From: a virus
Reading direction: 5' to 3' (one strand)
DNA: 29,215 bases
Virus record (IMG/VR): IMGVR_UViG_3300031539_000223
Span: 1-29,215 of that record
Made by a program: the position numbers and the translations under genes. Below are positions 314 to 7,371 of this stretch, in pieces (positions within the stretch are counted from its first letter, which is position 1; each line of letters opens with the position of its first letter). The notes beneath the pieces are model-generated. The model did not search any database. It saw nothing but the letters and a program-made list of their open reading frames with translations, and was not told the DNA's origin.

Positions 314-829
314 ATGCGGTATAGAAATGATAGACGGAATTGGAAGGTACTGCTTCCAGCACGAAGCACGTCAGACGCCAGGATACCAACGGACGCTCCG
401 ATCAATCTTGGAGTGACAGACACTAAGTTGAGAAAGCTACTTGGTGACGAGACAACTGAGAGATTGACCCGATTTGAGATGATTCCCATCTTGAGACCTT
501 TCTTCCACAAAGGTTACCTCGACGATGAGTACTTACGAAGTGAGCTACATCCCTTAATCCACTTAACGGAGCCCATCACCCTCCCAGCATGGCTACAAAC
601 CGAAAACAAGCTCGTATCAATCCAACTTGTACAGCCATTGCTTCTGATCTGTGTCGGTGACAACGGAGCACTGATAATGGTGACTCGACGGCCTTTAGGA
701 TTAGACCTCTTGGAAAATAAGGCTAGCCTAATGAATGTACACAAGGCGGCCCAGTATTACTATGAGCACTATTTAGAACAACGTGATTTTAATGGGGGAC
801 TTTTAGAGACGATTCAAGCTTATTTATGA
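314..829 (+). CDS. Hypothetical protein, 171 aa
   Basis: An open frame of 171 codons starts with ATG preceded by a near-perfect ribosome binding site (AAGGAGGTGAC, about 6 bases upstream). I do not recognise the family. The protein is mixed alpha/beta in appearance, with a basic N-terminus (MRYRNDRRNWK) and no signal peptide, clear membrane segment or cysteine motif. A central hydrophobic stretch (LVQPLLLICVG, about residues 105-115) looks like a buried strand or helix rather than a membrane span. It is the only plus-strand gene left of the structural operon and is convergent with the minus-strand cluster that ends at 940. Its function is unknown; an accessory or late-gene role is only a guess. 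Confidence 0.75.
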   Translation: MRYRNDRRNWKVLLPARSTSDARIPTDAPINLGVTDTKLRKLLGDETTERLTRFEMIPILRPFFHKGYLDDEYLRSELHPLIHLTEPITLPAWLQTENKLVSIQLVQPLLLICVGDNGALIMVTRRPLGLDLLENKASLMNVHKAAQYYYEHYLEQRDFNGGLLETIQAYL

Positions 830-893: not shown

Positions 894-921
894 AAACCAC
901 CCACCAGGGTGACCCTTTTTT
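894..921. repeat. GGTGACC motif, copy 1 (AGGGTGACCCT palindrome)
   Basis: The odd palindrome AGGGTGACCCT (906-916) is preceded by CACCCACC and followed by a T-run. An identical 11-mer occurs at 2798-2808, and a close relative with the same CACCCACC prefix and T-run suffix at 2881-2904. Copies 1 and 3 both lie just past a minus-strand terminator. It may be a protein-binding site or part of a duplicated 3' module; no function is known. Confidence 0.45.
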
Positions 922-928
922 AGGGCAA

Positions 929-952
929 AAAAGAAGCCCTCATTTGAGGACT
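929..952 (-). terminator. Intrinsic terminator of the minus-strand cluster
   Basis: Read on the minus strand, AGTCCTC and GAGGGCT form a 7-bp stem (952-946 with 941-935, one G-U pair) around the loop AAAT and are followed by TCTTTTTT. The TGA stop codon of the 73-aa membrane protein gene (942-940) sits at the loop/stem junction. Confidence 0.7.
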
Positions 953-1161
953 CCTAGTTGGATTAGTATACCAAATACCACTACCGTCGCCATAGAGATT
1001 AATACTAGTACAATTACGATTCCTTTTACCAAGTTGTTTGTACTGTGTAGTTCAGGTTCAACAAACTCTTTTGTTGTATTAATAGTTGTTGACTCGCTCT
1101 TCTTGAGCTTTTTGACAAATTTGTTTGTTGTAGTAATTACTTTATGTCCATGTTTGTACAT
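940..1161 (-). CDS. Small single-span membrane protein, 73 aa
   Basis: A minus-strand ORF. The N-terminal half is basic and polar (MYKHGHKV, KKLKKSE) and the C-terminal half is one strongly hydrophobic segment (GIVIVLVLISMATVVVFGIL, about residues 48-67) with only a few residues after it, as in a tail-anchored protein. I chose ATG at 1161 because GGAGGTGAT lies about 8 bases upstream; a TTG at 1170 is in frame but too close to that site. It is the last gene of the minus-strand cluster and its stop codon is part of the terminator hairpin. The family is not recognised. A holin is unlikely because there is a single span and no lysis context; a superinfection-exclusion-type membrane protein is possible but unproven. 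Confidence 0.6.
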   Translation of the reverse strand: MYKHGHKVITTTNKFVKKLKKSESTTINTTKEFVEPELHSTNNLVKGIVIVLVLISMATVVVFGILIQLGVLK

Positions 1162-1193
1162 CGAACACAATCACCTCCATAATCTTGGGTTGC

Positions 1194-1325
1194 TTAATCA
1201 AGTAGAGATAATATAACATGTCCACAACAATCACATATGGTATCATATGTGCAATACTCTCCATTATGTGTGTTGTACTTTACATGCCGTTTAGCTCCAC
1301 CACATTTGTAACATACTACTTTAGT
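1194..1325 (-). CDS. Zinc-ribbon reading frame without a start codon; possible -1 frameshift extension
   Basis: On the minus strand a 43-codon open frame (from after a TAA at 1328-1326 to TAA at 1196-1194) reads as a two-knuckle zinc ribbon: CYKCGG, then about 20 residues, then CDCCGH. It contains no ATG, GTG or TTG before the first cysteine. It overlaps the end of the 86-aa gene, whose TAG is at 1318-1316, and lies in that gene's -1 frame. A -1 shift near the AAACTAAAG just before the stop would append the ribbon to the 86-aa protein. Either programmed shifting, a natural frameshift mutation, or a sequence error could explain this. The cysteine spacing makes chance unlikely. Confidence 0.4.
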   Translation of the reverse strand, partial: TKVVCYKCGGAKRHVKYNTHNGEYCTYDTICDCCGHVILSLLD

Positions 1326-1576
1326 TTATCTTCCTTATACATCTGGCAAACCTTGATTATCTCGTCAACTATTTCGTCAAAGTTGTACTCGTACTTATCA
1401 TAGTCGATTATCAAGCTCACAATAACATCCCTCAAATCAATTGCGACTTTGCTTTTTGCGGAGGTCATCTTCCACGAAAGCAATTTTACAAGGGCTGCAT
1501 AGGCTGCCTCAGGTTCAGCTTTGTGATTATACACTTGGTGTAATAAAATACTGATCTCGTTCTTCATTCTACTCAT
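1316..1576 (-). CDS. Hypothetical alpha-helical protein, 86 aa
   Basis: A minus-strand gene with a good ribosome binding site (AAAGGAGTAAGGAACA then ATG). The protein appears helical, with hydrophobic residues at helical spacing (EISILLHQVY, AAYAALVKLL, DLRDVIVSLI, FDEIVDEIIKVC). The C-terminus is acidic then basic, and no enzyme motif is visible. It lies between the double-repeat DNA-binding-like protein and the small membrane protein, probably in one transcript from the promoter near 2607-2634. A zinc-ribbon frame follows in the -1 frame. The family is not recognised; a small regulatory or binding protein is possible. Confidence 0.65.
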   Translation of the reverse strand: MSRMKNEISILLHQVYNHKAEPEAAYAALVKLLSWKMTSAKSKVAIDLRDVIVSLIIDYDKYEYNFDEIVDEIIKVCQMYKEDKLK

Positions 1577-1603
1577 TGTTCCTTACTCCTTTCTAAAAAG
1601 CCT

Positions 1604-1648
1604 TCAGATGTTACAAAGAGTTTGTTGCCAAACATCGAATTCATCCAT
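1604..1648 (-). CDS. Possible 14-codon leader or link peptide
   Basis: A 14-codon frame (MDEFDVWQQTLCNI) starts 7 bases after the stop of the upstream gene and is preceded by AGGTGAATAACA, in which the AGG TGA of that gene's last codons doubles as a ribosome binding site. It ends 27 bases before the next gene. It could be a coupling peptide that carries ribosomes across the intergenic gap, or it could be chance. Too short to judge by content. Confidence 0.3.
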   Translation of the reverse strand: MDEFDVWQQTLCNI

Positions 1649-1671
1649 TGTTATTCACCTACCGTTTGGCA
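1626..1671 (-). other. Inverted repeat with 30-base loop around a stop codon
   Basis: TGCCAAAC (1626-1633) and GTTTGGCA (1664-1671) are perfect complements. The 30-base loop contains the stop codon of the 268-aa gene (1657-1655) and the start of the 14-codon frame. No U-tract follows on the minus strand, so this is not a normal terminator. It could slow RNA decay or couple the genes. Confidence 0.35.
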
Positions 1672-2461
1672 TGTTGTCTTCAGTTGGGATCTCGTGTTCC
1701 ATCTCATCTTCCAGTTTTTTAACTTCTTCCTCGGTAAGAGGCGGAATGCCTTCTGCGGTAAGAACAGCATCTGCCTTGGCGTCGAGTACCTTGATTGAAA
1801 TCAGTTCACTGATACGGATTGAAATCTCGACCAACTGATCTGGTGTACAATTGGTAAGAGTTTCTTTGACTTTGTCAAGGTCCACGATCTTAGTTTGATT
1901 CATTCTGGTTTCAACTCCCATAACCATCGGATATGGAATACCGAGCGACCTAGAAATAACTGCTCTTTCGAAACCTTCCCTGAGTAAGGAACGAATGACT
2001 TCGCTTTTTGAAGCACCATTTTCTAATGTAACCTTGGCTGCGGTTAAGACGGTTTCTGGAATAACCTTAATTTCTTTCTGAGGTTTGTTACCCTGTTCTT
2101 TGGCTCTTTTTTCCACTCCGATAACCATTGGATACTGTACATCGAGTGCTTTACAAATGATTGACTTTTTGGTTCCAAGTGCCAGAAGCTTTCTGATCCA
2201 TGAACTTTTGGTTACTCCTTTGTTCAAGTCATCAGCTATCTGAGTGTACATGTCCTCTGGTATTTTGAAACCTTCCGTTTTGACTTTGTCAATTTCCCCG
2301 CTGACAATTTGACTTGGTGTTTTTGAGTTCACAATTGTGTTCTCAACTACCTTTTGAATTGCCTGCTCTGCTGATTTCGAGGTTTCCTCTACAGTCATGG
2401 TCTTTACCTCAGGATCCAACTTAGCCGTGATTACTTTACCGTTTTTCTTGTTTCTAGACAT
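1655..2461 (-). CDS. Double helix-turn-helix-repeat protein A, 268 aa
   Basis: Probably a sequence-specific DNA-binding protein. Two related segments of about 36 residues (about 85-119 and 152-187) share the pattern KS.. IR.LL, then a short turn with G, then I...L..-YPMV.GVE.R, which reads as a compact three-helix, HTH-like unit. A third conserved block (about 196-220, VKETLTNCTPDQL and following) recurs at the C-terminus of protein B (3091-3531), so the two genes are paralogues. The first 80 residues (charged, Lys/Glu-rich) and the acidic tail (EEEVKKLEDEMEHE) are specific to this copy. I start at ATG 2461 because AAGGAG lies 9 bases upstream; an ATG 9 bases earlier abuts the binding site. 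The role is inferred: a repressor, segregation or nucleoid-type protein are all possible. Confidence 0.7.
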   Translation of the reverse strand: MSRNKKNGKVITAKLDPEVKTMTVEETSKSAEQAIQKVVENTIVNSKTPSQIVSGEIDKVKTEGFKIPEDMYTQIADDLNKGVTKSSWIRKLLALGTKKSIICKALDVQYPMVIGVEKRAKEQGNKPQKEIKVIPETVLTAAKVTLENGASKSEVIRSLLREGFERAVISRSLGIPYPMVMGVETRMNQTKIVDLDKVKETLTNCTPDQLVEISIRISELISIKVLDAKADAVLTAEGIPPLTEEEVKKLEDEMEHEIPTEDNMPNGR

Positions 2462-2486
2462 AATCGACATCTCCTTATAGTTTTAT

Positions 2487-2546
2487 TTGGTGGTGATCCA
2501 CCTAGCTATCCATCAATAGTGTTGATGGACAGTTACTGAACCACCA
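2487..2546 (-). promoter_or_regulatory. Structured 5' leader of the double-HTH gene A
   Basis: The transcript leader contains a perfect 8-bp hairpin, TCCATCAA / TTGATGGA (2509-2516 with 2522-2529, loop 5). It is enclosed by TGGTGG (2489-2494) and CCACCA (2540-2545), and GGTGG/CCACC can also pair locally (2490-2503). The leader lies directly upstream of the ribosome binding site, so it could modulate translation. This is a structural observation only. Confidence 0.4.
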
Positions 2547-2589
2547 TGTAGGTGATGTAGATTATGGAGGTAGTAGTGGTACTATTTAA

Positions 2590-2634
2590 TTGTCAATGTT
2601 CATTCTATTATAATTATATTATACATGACCTCAA
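2590..2634 (-). promoter_or_regulatory. Probable promoter of cassette A with shared TTGTCAATGTTCAT element
   Basis: On the minus strand TTGAGG (2634-2629) and TATAAT (2612-2607) are separated by 16 bases. Just downstream, at the expected transcription start, is ATGAACATTGACAA (2603-2590). The same 14-mer, next to a similar AT-rich block, stands upstream of the paralogous gene B (3613-3626). A conserved block at the start site is a typical operator position. Confidence 0.55.
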
Positions 2635-2730
2635 GCTTGTCTTTCACTATGGTAATTGAAATTCTTTTTTCAGAACCTTTACCAAGCTTTCCAGTGACTT
2701 CAAACCGTGACTCACACTACTAATTCAAAC

Positions 2731-2792
2731 GATCAAACCAATTTTGTGATCAAACCAATTTTGCGATCAAACCAATTTTGTGATCAAACCAA
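2731..2792. repeat. 17-bp tandem repeat array (iteron-like)
   Basis: Three full copies of GATCAAACCAATTTTGY (2731-2747, 2748-2764, 2765-2781) and a fourth partial copy (GATCAAACCAA, 2782-2792) follow each other without gaps; the copies differ only at the last base. The array lies about 100 bp upstream of the cassette A promoter and just after the cassette B terminator. It looks like a set of protein-binding sites or replication iterons. No replication initiator gene is visible in the window. Confidence 0.7.
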
Positions 2793-2797
2793 CCACA

Positions 2798-2904
2798 AGG
2801 GTGACCCTAAACCACAAGTTAACCACCCTCGTGACCACGGTTTTTTTTTCGCCGCCGCAGGTGTGAGGAAGCTAGTTAGACACCCACCTAGGTGACCCCT
2901 TTTG
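2798..2904. repeat. GGTGACC motifs, copies 2 and 3
   Basis: AGGGTGACCCT at 2798-2808 is identical to 906-916. At 2881-2904 CACCCACC is followed by TAGGTGACCCC and a T-run, matching the layout of copy 1. A looser match (TCGTGACCAC) occurs near 2830-2839, followed by a nine-T run. The stretch between 2635 and 2730 and the rest of this interval hold no gene that I can support. Confidence 0.45.
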
Positions 2905-2913
2905 GGTACAAAA

Positions 2914-2944
2914 AAAAAGACTAGGTTATTTACCTAGTCTTTTT
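2914..2944. terminator. Strong bidirectional intrinsic terminator
   Basis: AAAAAGACTAGGT (2914-2926) and ACCTAGTCTTTTT (2932-2944) are perfect 13-bp complements with a 5-base loop, giving A-tract, stem and U-tract in both directions. For the minus-strand gene 2926-3042 the TAA stop codon is at the stem/loop junction. Confidence 0.85.
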
Positions 2945-3042
2945 GATAGTGCTGACTTTGATGATTTTGTTAATGCCTTTCTTAGGGCCAATATTCTGAG
3001 CGTCTTTTTGATTATTCTGTCAATTTCTTTTTGGTCCAACAT
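2926..3042 (-). CDS. Small basic protein, 38 aa
   Basis: A short minus-strand ORF supported by an excellent ribosome binding site (AAGGAGGTACCTATT then ATG). It encodes a 38-residue protein rich in Lys and Arg (about one residue in three) that could form one long amphipathic helix (EIDRIIKKTLRILALRKAL). It lies 48 bases after the double-HTH gene B and ends inside the terminator. The family is not recognised. A nucleic-acid-binding or partner peptide of protein B is possible, because the pair form the whole cassette. Confidence 0.65.
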   Translation of the reverse strand: MLDQKEIDRIIKKTLRILALRKALTKSSKSALSKRLGK

Positions 3043-3082
3043 AATAGGTACCTCCTTTTTGATTTGACTTTTTGGGAAAGAG

Positions 3083-3102
3083 CTGAAGGCTTACGCCTTC
3101 AG
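3083..3102 (-). other. Hairpin at the end of double-HTH gene B
   Basis: CTGAAGGC and GCCTTCAG form a perfect 8-bp stem with a 4-base loop that contains the TAA stop codon of the gene (3093-3091). The minus-strand downstream sequence (CTCTTTCCC) is only weakly U-rich, so it may be a leaky terminator or an RNA-stability element between gene B and the 38-aa gene. Confidence 0.55.
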
Positions 3103-3531
3103 TTCTTTGATATAGGTTCCGAGTTCTTTAAGTTGTTCTTGCGTACAATTGTTGATTGTGTTTTTCAGTAGGTCGACATTGACTTCTTTGCGCTCTTTCA
3201 TTTTTTCTTCGACATTTCTGACGAATTGGTACAAAATGCCAAGTTCTTTGTAAATAGTTGTTTTCAAATAGCCTTGGTTCAATAGGTACCTAATTTGCGC
3301 GGATTTCGAACTGATCACACTGTAAATTTCTTTGTGCTCATCGCTTACGATTTCGACGACTTTCTCTGGCTTATCAATTTGCGCTTTCATTCGTTTTTCA
3401 ACGTTCATGACAAATTGGTACTGAACGCCGAGTTGTTTGACGATTTCTGCGCGCTTGACACCTTGCGTCAAAAGTTCGCGAATTTTAGACGACTTACTTT
3501 CCTGTTTTACGTTAGTTTCATTGAGTAACAT
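3091..3531 (-). CDS. Double helix-turn-helix-repeat protein B, 146 aa
   Basis: A paralogue of protein A without its long N-terminal part and acidic tail. Two repeats (about 13-48 and 76-112) follow the pattern KS..IR.LL.QG, a variable turn, then I...LG..YQFV.NVE..MK, which reads as an HTH-like unit. The C-terminal block (about 121-143, LLKNTINNCTQEQLKEL) matches the block in protein A. The start is ATG 3531 with TGAGGAG about 7 bases upstream. As the minimal form of the family it shows that the two repeats plus the C-terminal block are the conserved core. Tandem DNA-binding units suggest recognition of paired or repeated sites; candidates nearby are the 17-bp array and the ATAAGCC palindromes. 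No enzyme motif is visible. Confidence 0.7.
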   Translation of the reverse strand: MLLNETNVKQESKSSKIRELLTQGVKRAEIVKQLGVQYQFVMNVEKRMKAQIDKPEKVVEIVSDEHKEIYSVISSKSAQIRYLLNQGYLKTTIYKELGILYQFVRNVEEKMKERKEVNVDLLKNTINNCTQEQLKELGTYIKELKA

Positions 3532-3612
3532 GATAGACTCCTCAAGCGATCTGCCAAATGGTCAGAATTTACGCTTTTTAATGTAGCAAAGTTGTCGCTT
3601 AGTAATATTCAG

Positions 3613-3650
3613 TTGTCAATGTTCATCATCTTATAATAATATTATATAAT
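3613..3650 (-). promoter_or_regulatory. Promoter region of cassette B with shared element
   Basis: TTGTCAATGTTCAT (3613-3626) is identical to the block at 2590-2603 and is followed by the similar AT-rich run TTATAATAATATTATATAAT. On the minus strand this offers TATAAT-like hexamers (for example 3646-3641) upstream of the shared block. A -35 element is not clear. Confidence 0.45.
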
Positions 3651-3668
3651 AAAATACGAAGACTTTCC

Positions 3669-3792
3669 ATAAGCCATTTGGCTTATATTATATAAGCCAT
3701 TCGGCTTATATTTTATATAAGATTATATAAGCCATTCGGCTTATATTATATAAGCCATTCGGCTTATATTTTATATAAGCCATTCGGCTTAT
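3669..3792. repeat. Five copies of an 18-bp palindrome ATAAGCCATTCGGCTTAT
   Basis: Copies are at 3669-3686 (TTTG instead of TTCG in the centre), 3692-3709, 3727-3744, 3750-3767 and 3775-3792. Each has 7-bp arms (ATAAGCC / GGCTTAT) around ATTC. Spacing between starts is 23, 35, 23 and 25 bases, and the linkers are pure A/T (ATATTATAT, ATATTTTATAT). The set lies upstream of cassette B and left of the minisatellite. It could be a cluster of operator sites, a hairpin cluster or part of an origin or packaging site. Confidence 0.85.
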
Positions 3793-3832
3793 ATAATATA
3801 AGGCATAAGGGAATAGGGGAATAAGGGAATGA

Positions 3833-4300
3833 GAGAATTTTGGATGGCGATCATAGAGAATTAAAGGCTTAAAGGATCAAAGGCTTAAAAGCTTAAAAGC
3901 TTAAAGGCTTAGAGGATCAGAGGATCAGAGGATCAGAGGCTTAGAGGCTTAAAAGCTTAAAGGCTTAAAGGATTAAAGGATTAAAGGATTAAAGGATTAA
4001 AGGATTAAGAGAATTTTGGGTGGCGACTTTAGAGGCTTAAAGGCTTAAAGGATCAAAGGCTTAAAAGCTTAAAAGCTTAAAGGCTTAAAGGATCAGAGGC
4101 TTAGAGGCTTAGAGGCTTAGAGGCTTAGAGGCTTAAAAGCTTAAAGGCTCAAAGGATTAAAGGATTAAAGGATTAAAAGAATTTTGGATGGCTATCATAG
4201 AGAATTAGAGGCTTAAAGGCTTAAAGGATCAAAGGCTTAAAAGCTTAAAAGCTTAAAGGCTTAAAGGATCAGAGGCTTAGAGGATCAGAGGCTTAGAGTA
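3833..4300. repeat. Hierarchical 9-bp minisatellite (RAAGGMTYA-type) in units of about 170 bp
   Basis: The segment is almost entirely variants of a 9-base word: AAAGGCTTA, AGAGGCTTA, AAAGGATTA, AAAGGATCA, AGAGGATCA and AAAAGCTTA. They are arranged in higher-order units that each start with GAGAATTTTGGRTGGC or a close variant, at 3833, 4009 and 4177 (periods 176 and 168). Within the units the order of word types is similar: AAAGGATCA near the start, two AAAAGCTTA, then blocks of AGAGG words, then a run of AAAGGATTA. There is no open frame. Such arrays expand and contract by slippage or unequal recombination. Confidence 0.85.
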
Positions 4301-4471
4301 ATAAGGGAATAAGAGAGTAAGTGAATAAGGGAGTAAGTGAATAAGGGGGGAGGAGAATAGGTTCCTCAGCTGGGGGTTGCAGACACCATACCGGGCTCAA
4401 AAATGTAAGCATACCCTATCATAGTGCATGAATGAAACTTTCTTCGTTTCATGCCCAATTAATGGCAACAA
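4301..4471. other. Non-coding gap right of the minisatellite
   Basis: The first 50 bases continue as looser purine-rich GTAATAAGGGA / GTAAGTGAATAAGGG repeats. They are followed by a more GC-rich stretch (TTCCTCAGCTGGGGGTTGCA, 4352-4371) with no clear feature, and by a small inverted repeat (ATGAAAC at about 4432-4438 with GTTTCAT). No gene is supported here. Confidence 0.4.
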
Positions 4472-4496
4472 AAAACATATCACGAGAATATGTTTT
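4472..4496 (-). terminator. Intrinsic terminator of the HNH gene
   Basis: AAAACATAT (4472-4480) and ATATGTTTT (4488-4496) form a perfect 9-bp stem around a 7-base loop. Read on the minus strand the hairpin ends in a short U-run (GTTTTTTG). The TGA stop codon of the HNH gene (4482-4480) is at the stem/loop junction. Confidence 0.65.
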
Positions 4497-4923
4497 CTTT
4501 ATAGCTTTTTGGCTTCTTGCGTTTGACCTGAATCTTAACTCCAGTTTCTTTTTCATACTGTTTACGTATATTATTTATATAGCTTCTATTAATACCTGTT
4601 TCTTCCTCAATTTTTTCTACACTATAGTTCTGCTTAAAAAGGCAATAAATTATGCTCCTTAGTGAGTTAAAAATCCTATACCTTTTTCTGTTACATATAA
4701 TATGTGTAATCCTGATGTTTTGTTTGATATGTAAACCTCCATCATTAATTGACAAAATATGGTCAAATTCCACGTCATTTAGTTCAATGTGATTTCCACA
4801 TATTTGACATATTCCTTTGTCCCTGTTGTAAATAGCATCATAATCCACATACTTACATCGTAGACCTGTTTGATTCTGATATCTGTTTACTGCGCTCTTT
4901 GCTACTGCTTTAAACTGTTTCAT
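4480..4923 (-). CDS. HNH endonuclease, 147 aa
   Basis: An HNH-family nuclease, a metal-dependent beta-beta-alpha endonuclease. The core at about residues 31-81 has the zinc pair C39-x2-C42, the catalytic DH (D54-H55), an Asn and the downstream H74..C77-N78, in the order expected for the family. The C-terminal third (about 95-125, YSVEKIEEETGINRSYINNI) looks like an HTH DNA-binding domain, as in phage homing endonucleases. It has its own promoter (4945-4973) and terminator and stands alone on the minus strand beside the packaging genes. It could be a free-standing homing endonuclease or, less likely, a packaging-associated HNH protein, which usually sits next to the terminase on the same strand. 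Confidence 0.88.
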   Translation of the reverse strand: MKQFKAVAKSAVNRYQNQTGLRCKYVDYDAIYNRDKGICQICGNHIELNDVEFDHILSINDGGLHIKQNIRITHIICNRKRYRIFNSLRSIIYCLFKQNYSVEKIEEETGINRSYINNIRKQYEKETGVKIQVKRKKPKSYKENIFS

Positions 4924-5075: not shown

Positions 5076-5276
5076 ATGGAATATTTGGATGTCAATAAAT
5101 GGCTTGCAACTCAATTATATATACCTCAAATATTGACCTCTGTAAGATATGTGCCTCGCAAACTCTCAAATAGCACGTCTAACAAGCACACCTCCACCAC
5201 GGCAAGGAAAGTGAGAAGGCACGAGAAGGGAGCTGATCACCATGGCATTGGAATTCCTAACGCTGACTACCGATGA
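5076..5276 (+). CDS. Possible small leader ORF, 66 aa
   Basis: It is the first frame after the promoter and its ATG follows a perfect AAGGAGG at 9 bases, so translation very likely starts here. The first 30 residues (MEYLDVNKWLATQLYIP) look protein-like; the rest is low in hydrophobic residues and rich in Ser, Thr, Lys and Arg. It overlaps the start of the small terminase gene by 35 bases in another frame. It may be a genuine small protein or a translated leader that couples to the small terminase. A second tiny frame (from an ATG near 5098) lies inside it. Confidence 0.4.
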   Translation: MEYLDVNKWLATQLYIPQILTSVRYVPRKLSNSTSNKHTSTTARKVRRHEKGADHHGIGIPNADYR

Positions 5277-5880
5277 ACAGTTAAAAGAATACTACGTCAA
5301 GATAGTTAAGGCTATAGGTGAAGGTGATTATACTGCCCTAATTGAGCATACTGCCACCTGTGCAGTTTGCAAGAGCGGACACATGGTTGAAATAAACAAT
5401 ATGCTGACTGCTGGTATGACAATAGAGAATGTGCAGACTTGGTGTGAGGATAATGACCTTATTATAGATAAACTGACGATCAAAAGACATAAGACAATGC
5501 TACCATTAATGATAGCCGTTGAGATAAATAAGGCCGAGAAGGCTGGAGAGGTCACAGCATTACAGACTGACCTGAAATGGCTCATTAAAAAGAGTGACCA
5601 TGCAAGAGCTACCCACCTCTTAAAAATGTGGGATAAGCTACTTCCGCCTATGCTGGAAAGAATAGCAGCTATGTTGGAAGACGACACAGTACCCTTTCAG
5701 GCAATTGTTAATGCTTATGAGAAAGTTATTGACCTGTCGCTTAAAGTGCATCAGGCCGTTACACCAGACACTTTTTCGCCCGGTAAAGGTACAGGTGGAG
5801 GTAGTTCTAATGATCCACTTAGTGCCGGCTTAATGGGAGCAATTATCGGAGCTTATGCAGAAAGAACAAAAGTTACGTAA
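5242..5880 (+). CDS. terS: Terminase small subunit (probable), 212 aa
   Basis: Called as the small terminase, which recognises phage DNA and regulates the packaging motor, mainly because it directly precedes the large subunit. The N-terminal half has a CxxC pair (CAVC, about residues 40-43) followed by a helical segment and KRHK (about 81-84). This resembles a phage family in which a CxxC knuckle precedes an HTH that ends in a basic His-containing helix. The middle is helical and charged, and the C-terminus is Gly/Ser-rich then hydrophobic (LMGAIIGAYAERTK). The ATG at 5242 has GAAGGGAG about 10 bases upstream. The gene is in the same reading frame as the large subunit, with only TAA CCT between them. 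Confidence 0.65.
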   Translation: MALEFLTLTTDEQLKEYYVKIVKAIGEGDYTALIEHTATCAVCKSGHMVEINNMLTAGMTIENVQTWCEDNDLIIDKLTIKRHKTMLPLMIAVEINKAEKAGEVTALQTDLKWLIKKSDHARATHLLKMWDKLLPPMLERIAAMLEDDTVPFQAIVNAYEKVIDLSLKVHQAVTPDTFSPGKGTGGGSSNDPLSAGLMGAIIGAYAERTKVT

Positions 5881-5883
5881 CCT

Positions 5884-7371
5884 ATGACCCAGATAGAACA
5901 GGCAATCGCATTTTACTTCGATAGGCCTGTTGAATATGTCGTGGATATAATTGGTGTAACTCCCGACGATGTTCAAGCACAAGTTATTCAAAGTGTAGCT
6001 GATGAGGCAATGACAAGTGTGCGTTCAGGTCACGGTGTTGGTAAATCGGCATTAGAGGCGTGGTGTATAAAGTGGTTCATGTTTACACGACCATTTCCGA
6101 AGATACCGTGTACAGCACCAACTAAGCACCAATTATACGATATCTTGTGGGCTGAAGTAGCAAAATGGAATACAATAAGTAAGGATAGAGAATGGTTCAC
6201 TTGGACCTATGAGAAGTTTTACTTGAAGGAGTGCCCTGAAAATTGGTTCGCTGTTCCGCGTACAGCAACTAAACCGGACGCCCTTCAAGGCTTCCATGCA
6301 ACACACCTCTTGTTCATTATAGATGAAGCTAGTGGTGTTGAAGATATAGTTTTCGAACCTGTACTAGGTGCATTGAGTACAGAAGGAGCAAAGTTATTAA
6401 TGTGTGGTAATCCTACACAGATAGCTGGCTTCTTTTATGACTCACATAACAAAAACCGTGACCAGTATAAGGTTTATAAAATAGATGGTCGTACCTCACA
6501 AAGAGTTAGCAACACGTTCGTTCAAATGATCATTGAGATGTATGGTGAGGATAGCGACGTTTTTCGCGTGAGAGTCGCAGGTGATTTTCCGAAATCGTTA
6601 CCTGATGTCCTTATTCCACTTGATTGGTGCGAACGCAATAGTAAGAGGGAAAAAGAGATACATATGATGGTGGGTAGTACTCAAATTATCCATGTAGACA
6701 TAGGAGTTGACGTAGCACGTTATGGTGATGATGAATCAGTATTGTGCCCTGTACTTAATGATTGTTTGATGGAACCTCTTGAAAAGTACTTTCATAATAA
6801 CACAATGAGAATTACAGGTGTGTTAGTACAAATGATTGACAGGTATGAAAGTCAACATAACCTCGAACAAATATGGGCAGAATCAAAAGCGGCAGAAGAG
6901 ATGTATGGCAATGATGCGATCCCAATAAAAGGGTTAATAGATGTTAAAATCGACTGCGACGGCTTAGGTGTGGGTGTTTACGATAGACTGTGTGAAATCA
7001 TAGAACAGCGACAGGGCAAGGGAGAATGGTTAAATGTCATAGCTTATGAAGTTCACTTTGGCGGTGAAGGAGGAAAGCTGAATGATGAACATCCAGTGCA
7101 GTTTAAAAACAAAGCAAGCCTTATGTGGGGTAATGCACGAGAGAAATTACGTACAGATAGCATAACTTGTTCTTATGACGATAAGTTGATTAGTCAGCTT
7201 AGTACGCGTAAGTACAAGATTGAATCGGAAGGTATGATAGAGATTGAAAAGAAAGACTTAATGAAAAAACGTGGACTTAAATCGCCTGACTGTGCTGATG
7301 CCTTTGTATTATCAATAGCAACGCCAGCAATGGTATTGGGTGAAAGGCCACGTATTCGTGTCATAGATTAG
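5884..7371 (+). CDS. terL: Terminase large subunit (ATPase and nuclease), 495 aa
   Basis: The motor that pumps phage DNA into the prohead and cuts it. The ATPase domain has Walker A RSGHGVGKS (47-55), Walker B LLFIIDE (142-148, with D147/E148) and the coupling motif CGNPTQ (174-179). The RNase H-like nuclease domain starts with GVDVARYGDD (274-283, D276 as first metal ligand), continues with D357/D359 and ends with DCADAF (469-474). Length and motif order match complete terminases. The start ATG lies only 3 bases after the stop of the upstream gene and has no Shine-Dalgarno, unlike almost every other gene here, so its translation probably depends on coupling to the small subunit. Confidence 0.95.
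   Translation: MTQIEQAIAFYFDRPVEYVVDIIGVTPDDVQAQVIQSVADEAMTSVRSGHGVGKSALEAWCIKWFMFTRPFPKIPCTAPTKHQLYDILWAEVAKWNTISKDREWFTWTYEKFYLKECPENWFAVPRTATKPDALQGFHATHLLFIIDEASGVEDIVFEPVLGALSTEGAKLLMCGNPTQIAGFFYDSHNKNRDQYKVYKIDGRTSQRVSNTFVQMIIEMYGEDSDVFRVRVAGDFPKSLPDVLIPLDWCERNSKREKEIHMMVGSTQIIHVDIGVDVARYGDDESVLCPVLNDCLMEPLEKYFHNNTMRITGVLVQMIDRYESQHNLEQIWAESKAAEEMYGNDAIPIKGLIDVKIDCDGLGVGVYDRLCEIIEQRQGKGEWLNVIAYEVHFGGEGGKLNDEHPVQFKNKASLMWGNAREKLRTDSITCSYDDKLISQLSTRKYKIESEGMIEIEKKDLMKKRGLKSPDCADAFVLSIATPAMVLGERPRIRVID

Follow-up and report, generated by a model that had tools for sequence, protein, structure and literature searches.

Paralogous double helix-turn-helix genes, candidate regulators, at the divergent boundary of a phage terminase operon

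The IMG/VR virus record IMGVR_UViG_3300031539_000223 carries on its minus strand two gene cassettes that are built on the same plan around proteins with two helix-turn-helix (HTH) units, here called A and B. The question raised by this locus is whether the cassettes are copies of one module and what such a pair of proteins might do next to the terminase genes of a phage. The window analyzed here is the whole record (positions 1-29,215), a contig of 29,215 bases that is probably a fragment and that contains terminase, portal, prohead protease, capsid and tape-measure genes. Alignment identifies A and B as true paralogs, and a comparison with other viruses places them in a widespread set of phage genes located near, and transcribed away from, the terminase operon. 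We consider it fairly probable that they are autoregulated, sequence-specific DNA-binding regulators at the divergent boundary of the terminase/late operon.

A clear relation between the two proteins follows from their alignment, in which 57 of 137 residues are identical (42%; expect value (E) 2e-30 for the pair with BLASTP) and the block NCTxxQLxE is common to both. A consists of an N-terminal extension, two tandem HTH units, the C-terminal block common with B and an acidic tail. The features of the two genes are the following (aa, amino acids; pLDDT, predicted local distance difference test score):

1655-2470, minus strand: protein A, 271 aa, an open reading frame (ORF) after a purine-rich, ribosome-binding-like sequence
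2093-2221, minus strand: HTH unit 1 of A, residues 84-126 (alignment to B; pLDDT 84-88 over residues 81-120)
1892-2020, minus strand: HTH unit 2 of A, residues 151-193 (alignment to B and to the other units; pLDDT 83-85 over residues 151-190)
1796-1891, minus strand: C-terminal block of A common with B, residues 194-225 (alignment to B)
3091-3531, minus strand: protein B, 146 aa, with a tandem pair of HTH units and the C-terminal block also present in A
3379-3507, minus strand: HTH unit 1 of B, residues 9-51 (alignment to A, model, structural superposition)
3190-3318, minus strand: HTH unit 2 of B, residues 72-114 (alignment to A, model)

Protein A would measure 268 aa if translation began at the second ATG (2461), whose spacing from AAGGAG is more favourable. 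The four HTH units of A and B, of about 43 residues each, have pairwise identities of 17 to 23 out of 43. The reading of the locus that was made earlier from the sequence only had described A and B as related double-HTH proteins with the same C-terminal block, and the alignment bears this out. The structure prediction proposed with it gave helices of HTH type at both units in the AlphaFold models of both proteins, with pLDDT mostly between 80 and 90 within the units (mean over the whole model 63.6 for A and 76.8 for B). These models were made from a two-sequence alignment and have predicted template-modelling scores of 0.28 (A) and 0.44 (B), and the arrangement of one unit relative to the other is unreliable.

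The control DNA in front of the two genes is alike as well. More specifically, 38 of the 45 positions of the promoter blocks are identical, a score matched by none of 200 dinucleotide shuffles. The identical element that had been reported for both AT-rich blocks is confirmed as an exact 14-bp copy, which begins 3 to 14 bases past a -10 box:

2579-2623, minus strand: promoter block of cassette A, with TATAAT at 2623-2618 and 2612-2607 and the 14-bp element ATGAACATTGACAA at 2603-2590
3602-3646, minus strand: promoter block of cassette B, with TATAAT at 3646-3641 and the 14-bp element at 3626-3613

Contig-wide, TTGTCAATGTTCAT is found exactly at 2590-2603 and 3613-3626 only, and a single copy with two mismatches lies within gene B.

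At the other end of both cassettes a terminator-like stem holds the last stop codon (955-932 and 2944-2914), as had been proposed, and the stretches past the two terminators are alike, again with a score that none of 200 dinucleotide shuffles matched. These stretches carry the GTCACC..GGTGGGTG element, described earlier as a GGTGACC motif beyond the terminator. It is indeed present past both terminators, but it also occurs upstream of A and in the A leader (weaker copy at 2556-2540) and is therefore not solely a 3' mark; the four matches to RTCACCYNNNTGGKNG in the contig are these same places, two past terminators, one upstream of A and one in its leader. The parts downstream of the regulator genes, together with the third strong copy of the element, are as follows:

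1316-1576, minus strand: helical ORF of cassette A, 86 aa, with a purine-rich, ribosome-binding-like sequence upstream
1194-1325, minus strand: zinc-ribbon-like cysteine frame without ATG, GTG or TTG start, in the -1 frame relative to the 86-aa ORF and overlapping its end
940-1170, minus strand: 76-aa ORF, final gene of cassette A, with one hydrophobic membrane span in its C-terminal half (by eye)
932-955, minus strand: terminator-like stem of cassette A, containing the stop codon of the 76-aa ORF
897-913, minus strand: GTCACC..GGTGGGTG element past the A terminator
2926-3042, minus strand: 38-aa basic ORF, final gene of cassette B, with a purine-rich, ribosome-binding-like sequence upstream
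2914-2944, minus strand: terminator-like stem of cassette B, containing the stop codon of the 38-aa ORF
2880-2896, minus strand: GTCACC..GGTGGGTG element past the B terminator
2789-2805, minus strand: third strong copy of this element, upstream of A

By eye, the small ORFs of cassette A appear unrelated to that of cassette B. None of the small cassette genes has a significant family match in Pfam, PHROGs and NCBIfam, the 38-aa ORF having been scanned in NCBIfam and PADLOC only. The small genes listed in the sequence-only reading are recovered as the 86-aa, 76-aa and 38-aa ORFs, but its zinc-ribbon gene has no usual start codon, for which a programmed frameshift, an unusual start, a decayed gene or a sequence error could account. 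Where this frame overlaps it, the 86-aa ORF ends in A AAG TAG.

Since both the promoter block and the post-terminator stretch are alike beyond shuffles, the regulator gene probably shares its descent with both the 5' and the 3' end of the cassette, and the earlier suggestion that a whole module was duplicated is thereby strengthened. Given a nucleotide identity of about 50% in the aligned coding parts, the duplication looks old, with the 14-bp element kept identical.

The position of the cassettes can be defined relative to three further genes of the window:

5884-7371, plus strand: terminase large subunit (TerL; tblastn against annotated terminases, best 57.4% identity)
5242-5880, plus strand: putative terminase small subunit (TerS), first gene of the divergent late operon, immediately preceding TerL
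4480-4923, minus strand: HNH endonuclease gene (PF01844 above cut-off), between the HTH cassettes and terS

B starts about 2.4 kb and A about 3.4 kb upstream of TerL, both on the minus strand, an arrangement that we refer to as the terminase-divergent position. The portal, protease and capsid genes come after TerL, and the top family match of the putative TerS is phrog_1007 (function unknown, E 4e-4).

Is this position peculiar to the window? A profile built from seven HTH units led to 54 IMG/VR loci, and an hmmsearch with the unit profile gave 114 unit ORFs in the loci from L091 on, a count that includes overlapping and near-identical ones. We have collected 36 records, namely 33 contigs of at least 12 kb from the 54 loci and three named phages, in all of which the unit is present by construction. 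Unit paralogs often sit together in sets of two to five: 29 of the 36 records have at least two unit ORFs, and in 27 two of them lie within 6 kb. TerL was detected with three profiles in 32 records; nine of the 29 Terminase_6N matches were below the Pfam cut-off, and for most of these the Terminase_6C profile or close homologues gave additional support. At least one unit gene on the strand opposite to TerL, no more than 8 kb upstream of it, is present in 29 of the 32, whereas 2000 random placements produced this layout in 7.1 records on average and in 15 at most. When five near-identical records were dropped, the layout was present in 24 of 27, against a random mean of 4.9 and maximum of 12. 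Counted per unit match, 51 of 72 are upstream on the opposite strand within 8 kb, nine upstream on the same strand, one downstream and 11 further away. In two of the four records without a TerL match, G048 and G053, the units are divergent from a TerS-like gene; the stretches analyzed of the other two, G056 and G076, showed neither TerL nor TerS. The divergent neighbour was TerS by phrog_6299 in three of the four proteins scanned, other neighbours being assigned by homology to one another. A comparison of 24 TerLs, that of the window included, by single linkage yielded five groups at 40% identity and 11 at 50%.

The recurrent layout has an internal order. In 18 of 20 records (sign test p 4e-4) the ORF far from the terminase exceeds the near one in length, a pattern noticed after the fact and counted on open-frame lengths in records with at least two units in the 8-kb upstream zone on either strand, the five near-identical records being dropped and TerS standing in for TerL in G048 and G053. 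The window follows this order, B being near and short and A far and long. The closest parallel to its layout is record G075, in which the protein encoded close to the terminase has 107 aa and two units (both matched by the profile) and the one farther out has 152 aa. The latter has an acidic tail and one unit by profile, a second one being apparent from its alignment to the 107-aa protein (37% identical). Both genes are divergent from the G075 TerL, which is 28% identical to that of the window over 522 residues. B and the 107-aa protein give E 5e-12 as a pair (54% over 39 residues); A and the 152-aa protein gave no convincing match (best E 0.041). A search for phage loci with two or more such cassettes had been proposed: G075 has a tandem-HTH pair and clusters of single-unit genes are common, but the tandem pair was seen nowhere else. 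At the L155 locus the profile also split one unit in two, which by eye is a single unit with an insertion. In L093 (5226-5904, phage Youna2 52225-52903) an annotated Rho-N protein overlaps the HTH-unit frame in a different frame, and in phages BSTP5 and BSP7 Rho-N and HTH-unit parts are in one open protein.

The control DNA of the relatives was compared with that of other genes at the same loci, for which 250 control genes were drawn from 339; these include operon-internal genes without a promoter. An inverted repeat directly past a -10-like box precedes 10 of 84 unit genes versus one of the 250 others (Fisher p 6e-6). In both cassettes of the window this place is occupied by the 14-bp element ATGAACATTGACAA. 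Upstream blocks common to paralogs of the relatives exceeded 60 shuffles in a minority of pairs. A profile of the pre-terS region from the main lineage had no match in the window (best E 5). As separate observations, related inverted repeats of the ATGATGAA..TTCATCAT type stand immediately past the unit-gene -10 box on the different contigs L111, L128, L133 and L109, and in several main-lineage contigs (L161-L178) a TTGAC..TATAAT-like sequence was seen by eye in the stretch ahead of terS that is divergent from the unit gene.

How might such a system work? One ancestral cassette, consisting of promoter, regulator gene and 3' block, would have been duplicated, after which its small downstream genes would have been lost or replaced. 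Each protein may bind the 14-bp element past its own -10 box and in that way control its own operon, and because the element is identical, cross-control of the other cassette would be possible. We infer that a single chain carrying two HTH units would not require its site to be palindromic. The A/B pair might in addition help to time or tune the divergent terminase/late operon, with the repeat arrays described below as extra sites; divergent regulator genes commonly act on the region between them. The regulatory DNA-binding role that had been suggested from the outset gains from the paralogy, the conserved flanks, the recurring terminase-divergent position and the -10 box with inverted repeat in relatives, and the recurrence of the layout in many viruses points to a putative common control of late genes or packaging.

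Several observations weigh against this proposal, in which binding and regulation by A and B are putative. The 14-bp element was not found upstream of TerS, and B is separated from TerS by 1.7 kb that contain the HNH gene and the repeat arrays. A and B are on the strand opposite to terS, unlike the known arrangement of late regulators. Records G070, BSTP5 and Youna2 carry the unit outside the terminase-divergent position, and tandem-unit genes were found in one other record only (G075). Moreover, 19 of the 24 TerLs fall in one group at 40% identity, so that the relatives are mostly one broad lineage and the records are not independent. As for their control DNA, the count of -10 box plus repeat was chosen after looking at the data, and inverted repeats overall are not enriched (13 of 84 unit genes versus 28 of 250 others, p 0.34; repeats at p at most 0.05, from a second run with more shuffles and controls that was used in place of a first run with 20 of 84).

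The main rival is a role in packaging, for which the repeats around the two cassettes are of importance:

2731-2792, unstranded: 17-bp direct repeat GATCAAACCAATTTTGT, 3.6 copies, upstream of the A promoter (Tandem Repeats Finder score 117)
3669-3802, unstranded: five AAGCCNNNNGGCTT palindromes upstream of the B promoter
3818-4360, unstranded: array of mostly 8-bp repeats, 543 bp, purine-rich

The motif GGCTTA is the arm of the palindromes and recurs in one orientation in the array, and palindromes plus array (3660-4360, 0.7 kb) hold 26 of the 34 plus-strand copies in the contig. None of the arrays has a 5-base word in common with the 14-bp element, and a single protein that binds both would for that reason need explaining. 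A and B might then be accessory small-terminase-like factors that act on the arrays 3669-4360 and 2731-2792 of a pac/cos region, an explanation that we regard as unlikely though it has several points in its favour: the location near terS, the concentration of GGCTTA, and the superposition of a B unit on the small terminase of phage G20C (root-mean-square deviation 1.4 Å over 47 residues, Z 6.3), which was one among many HTH proteins. That match is a generic HTH match, however, with a Z tied with those of Trp repressor and resolvase. Likewise, the 107-aa protein of G075 matches the TerS families PHROGs 7067 (E 1.5e-5) and 2538 (E 6e-5), but behind better matches to regulators and other HTH proteins. 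PMC4737164 describes small terminases that contain an HTH as acting at pac sites that carry direct repeats, and in the SPP1 pac site such repeats lie around the start of the small terminase gene; the same paper reports that the HTH domain of the SF6 small terminase shows little preference for pac repeats. The phage has, moreover, a separate TerS candidate, no region for oligomerisation or TerL binding is recognisable in A and B, and an array of comparable size precedes terS in none of the 24 other loci examined. The density of tandem-repeat rows before terS (1.23 versus 0.32 per kb, window included) was not used; it counted overlapping rows and did not control for non-coding DNA. HNH genes adjoining the terminase can belong to packaging machines. 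A combination of both roles is conceivable but speculative, and we would not expect it to hold: the near-short/far-long HTH set divergent from terS would switch between late transcription and packaging, both members being in this phage covalent 'pseudo-dimers' that recognise the same non-palindromic operator, and B or a related protein would coat the 543-bp array of GGCTTA half-sites as a nucleoprotein platform for the terminase.

Other explanations leave the late operon aside. Generic HTH proteins might simply have multiplied in a tolerant, non-essential region beside it, the local duplication having no special role; non-essential genes are frequently found at operon boundaries, and HTH-unit ORFs are multi-copy in most records. 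The near-short/far-long order, the conserved regulatory flanks and a divergent position that returns in 10 TerL groups besides that of the window (single linkage, 50% identity) make this improbable. The sequence-only reading had also thought of a defence-like module, in which a conserved DNA-binding adaptor for defence or superinfection immunity works with exchangeable effectors. The small genes do differ between the cassettes and one has a membrane span, but simple turnover after duplication could explain this without exchangeable partners; six of six proteins had no PADLOC match up to E 1, no effector was recognised, and the neighbours are terminase genes, which makes a defence role very improbable. 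The least probable of these readings, with hardly any weight, is that A and B are centromere-binding or plasmid-type partition proteins of a phage-plasmid, whose tandem HTH units load on iterons. Iteron-like arrays do adjoin both genes, the G075 protein has a ParB-like PHROG match (E 7.8e-7), and B is weakly similar to KorA and RepB, but KorA/TrfB reaches 21.2 bits versus a Pfam cut-off of 26.7, RepB is also below its cut-off, and the usual neighbour in relatives is the terminase. In addition, a Pfam scan that covered 12 of the proteins of the window showed no partition ATPase, and part of the genome is probably missing from the contig.

For the favoured role as regulators, a comparison with known systems is informative. 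According to PMC13123087, the genes of phage late regulators adjoin terS or the late promoter, and these proteins use promoter-proximal repeats as their sites. The RinA and Ltr families and Alt of TP901-1, from phages of Gram-positive bacteria, are phage-encoded DNA-binding proteins of about 130 aa, similar in size to B. Unlike these, A and B are on the opposite strand, at least 1.7 kb from TerS, and have two HTH units. The Pfam and NCBIfam libraries contain RinA/ArpU models, and neither A nor B had a match to a RinA/Ltr/ArpU-type family in them up to E 1. B does match phrog_3855 (E 2.1e-5) and phrog_3910 (E 1.1e-4), annotated as HTH DNA binding protein and transcriptional regulator, with which it has the KSxxIRxLLxxG..YQxVxNV unit in common. 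Nearly all relatives found in this analysis are single-unit proteins, in contrast to the window, and tandem units beside the terminase were seen in the window and G075 only. Tandem HTH units on one chain are also found in the CRISPR-repeat-binding protein Cbp1, which is archaeal and which surfaces in the fold comparison (2lvs); the NCBIfam match to it is weak (16.3 bits versus a cut-off of 140). The small terminases of G20C and P74-26 resemble A and B in the HTH fold of a single unit and in gene neighbourhood, and that of SF6 in neighbourhood; unlike in these proteins, a ring-forming region was not recognised in A or B, which have a separate TerS candidate beside them, and the similarity is that of generic HTH proteins.

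The recurrent terminase-divergent position of HTH-unit genes is apparently new and unnamed, and the literature searches, in the parts of the sources they returned, turned up no account of HTH paralogs that form a module divergent from the terminase. Small DNA-binding genes are maintained beside the terminase operon in many phages; in the cultured Brevundimonas phage StAshley, where STASHLEY_00480 is the unit gene beside terS, their annotation is 'hypothetical'. If they control late transcription or packaging, such genes would acquire a testable role in many uncultured and cultured viruses. The window would also provide a naturally occurring example of duplicated regulators that have their control DNA in common.

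Close relatives of A and B themselves are scarce. Single-protein and alignment scans of IMG/VR and GTDB genome scans for A or B, as well as exact-pattern scans of IMG/VR for the promoter element and the palindrome pair, gave no relatives, but with strict patterns that leave absence unproven. With tblastn, A had no match in phages; B had one phage and, in plasmids, four Rhizobium records, whose GIY-YIG nuclease proteins match over 36-55% of B. Foldseek searches of PDB and BFVD yielded no match that reached E 0.001. An A2 profile matched one of 50 whole records (from 46 of the 80 TerL loci treated below and four others), namely Youna2.

As for the remainder of the contig, Rfam and tRNA scans found nothing, and a 171-aa ORF at 314-829 (plus strand) has no match in Pfam, PHROGs, NCBIfam and PADLOC. 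The contig ends (28957-29215) in a perfect 132-bp tandem repeat of 2.0 copies, where an assembly break in a repetitive gene is possible. The window TerL reaches at most 59% identity to IMG/VR loci (best segment). Among 80 IMG/VR TerL loci, covering at most 8 kb on each side, none has A or B, and 11 have one additional window protein in common, being the portal, a 160-aa protein or the tape measure.

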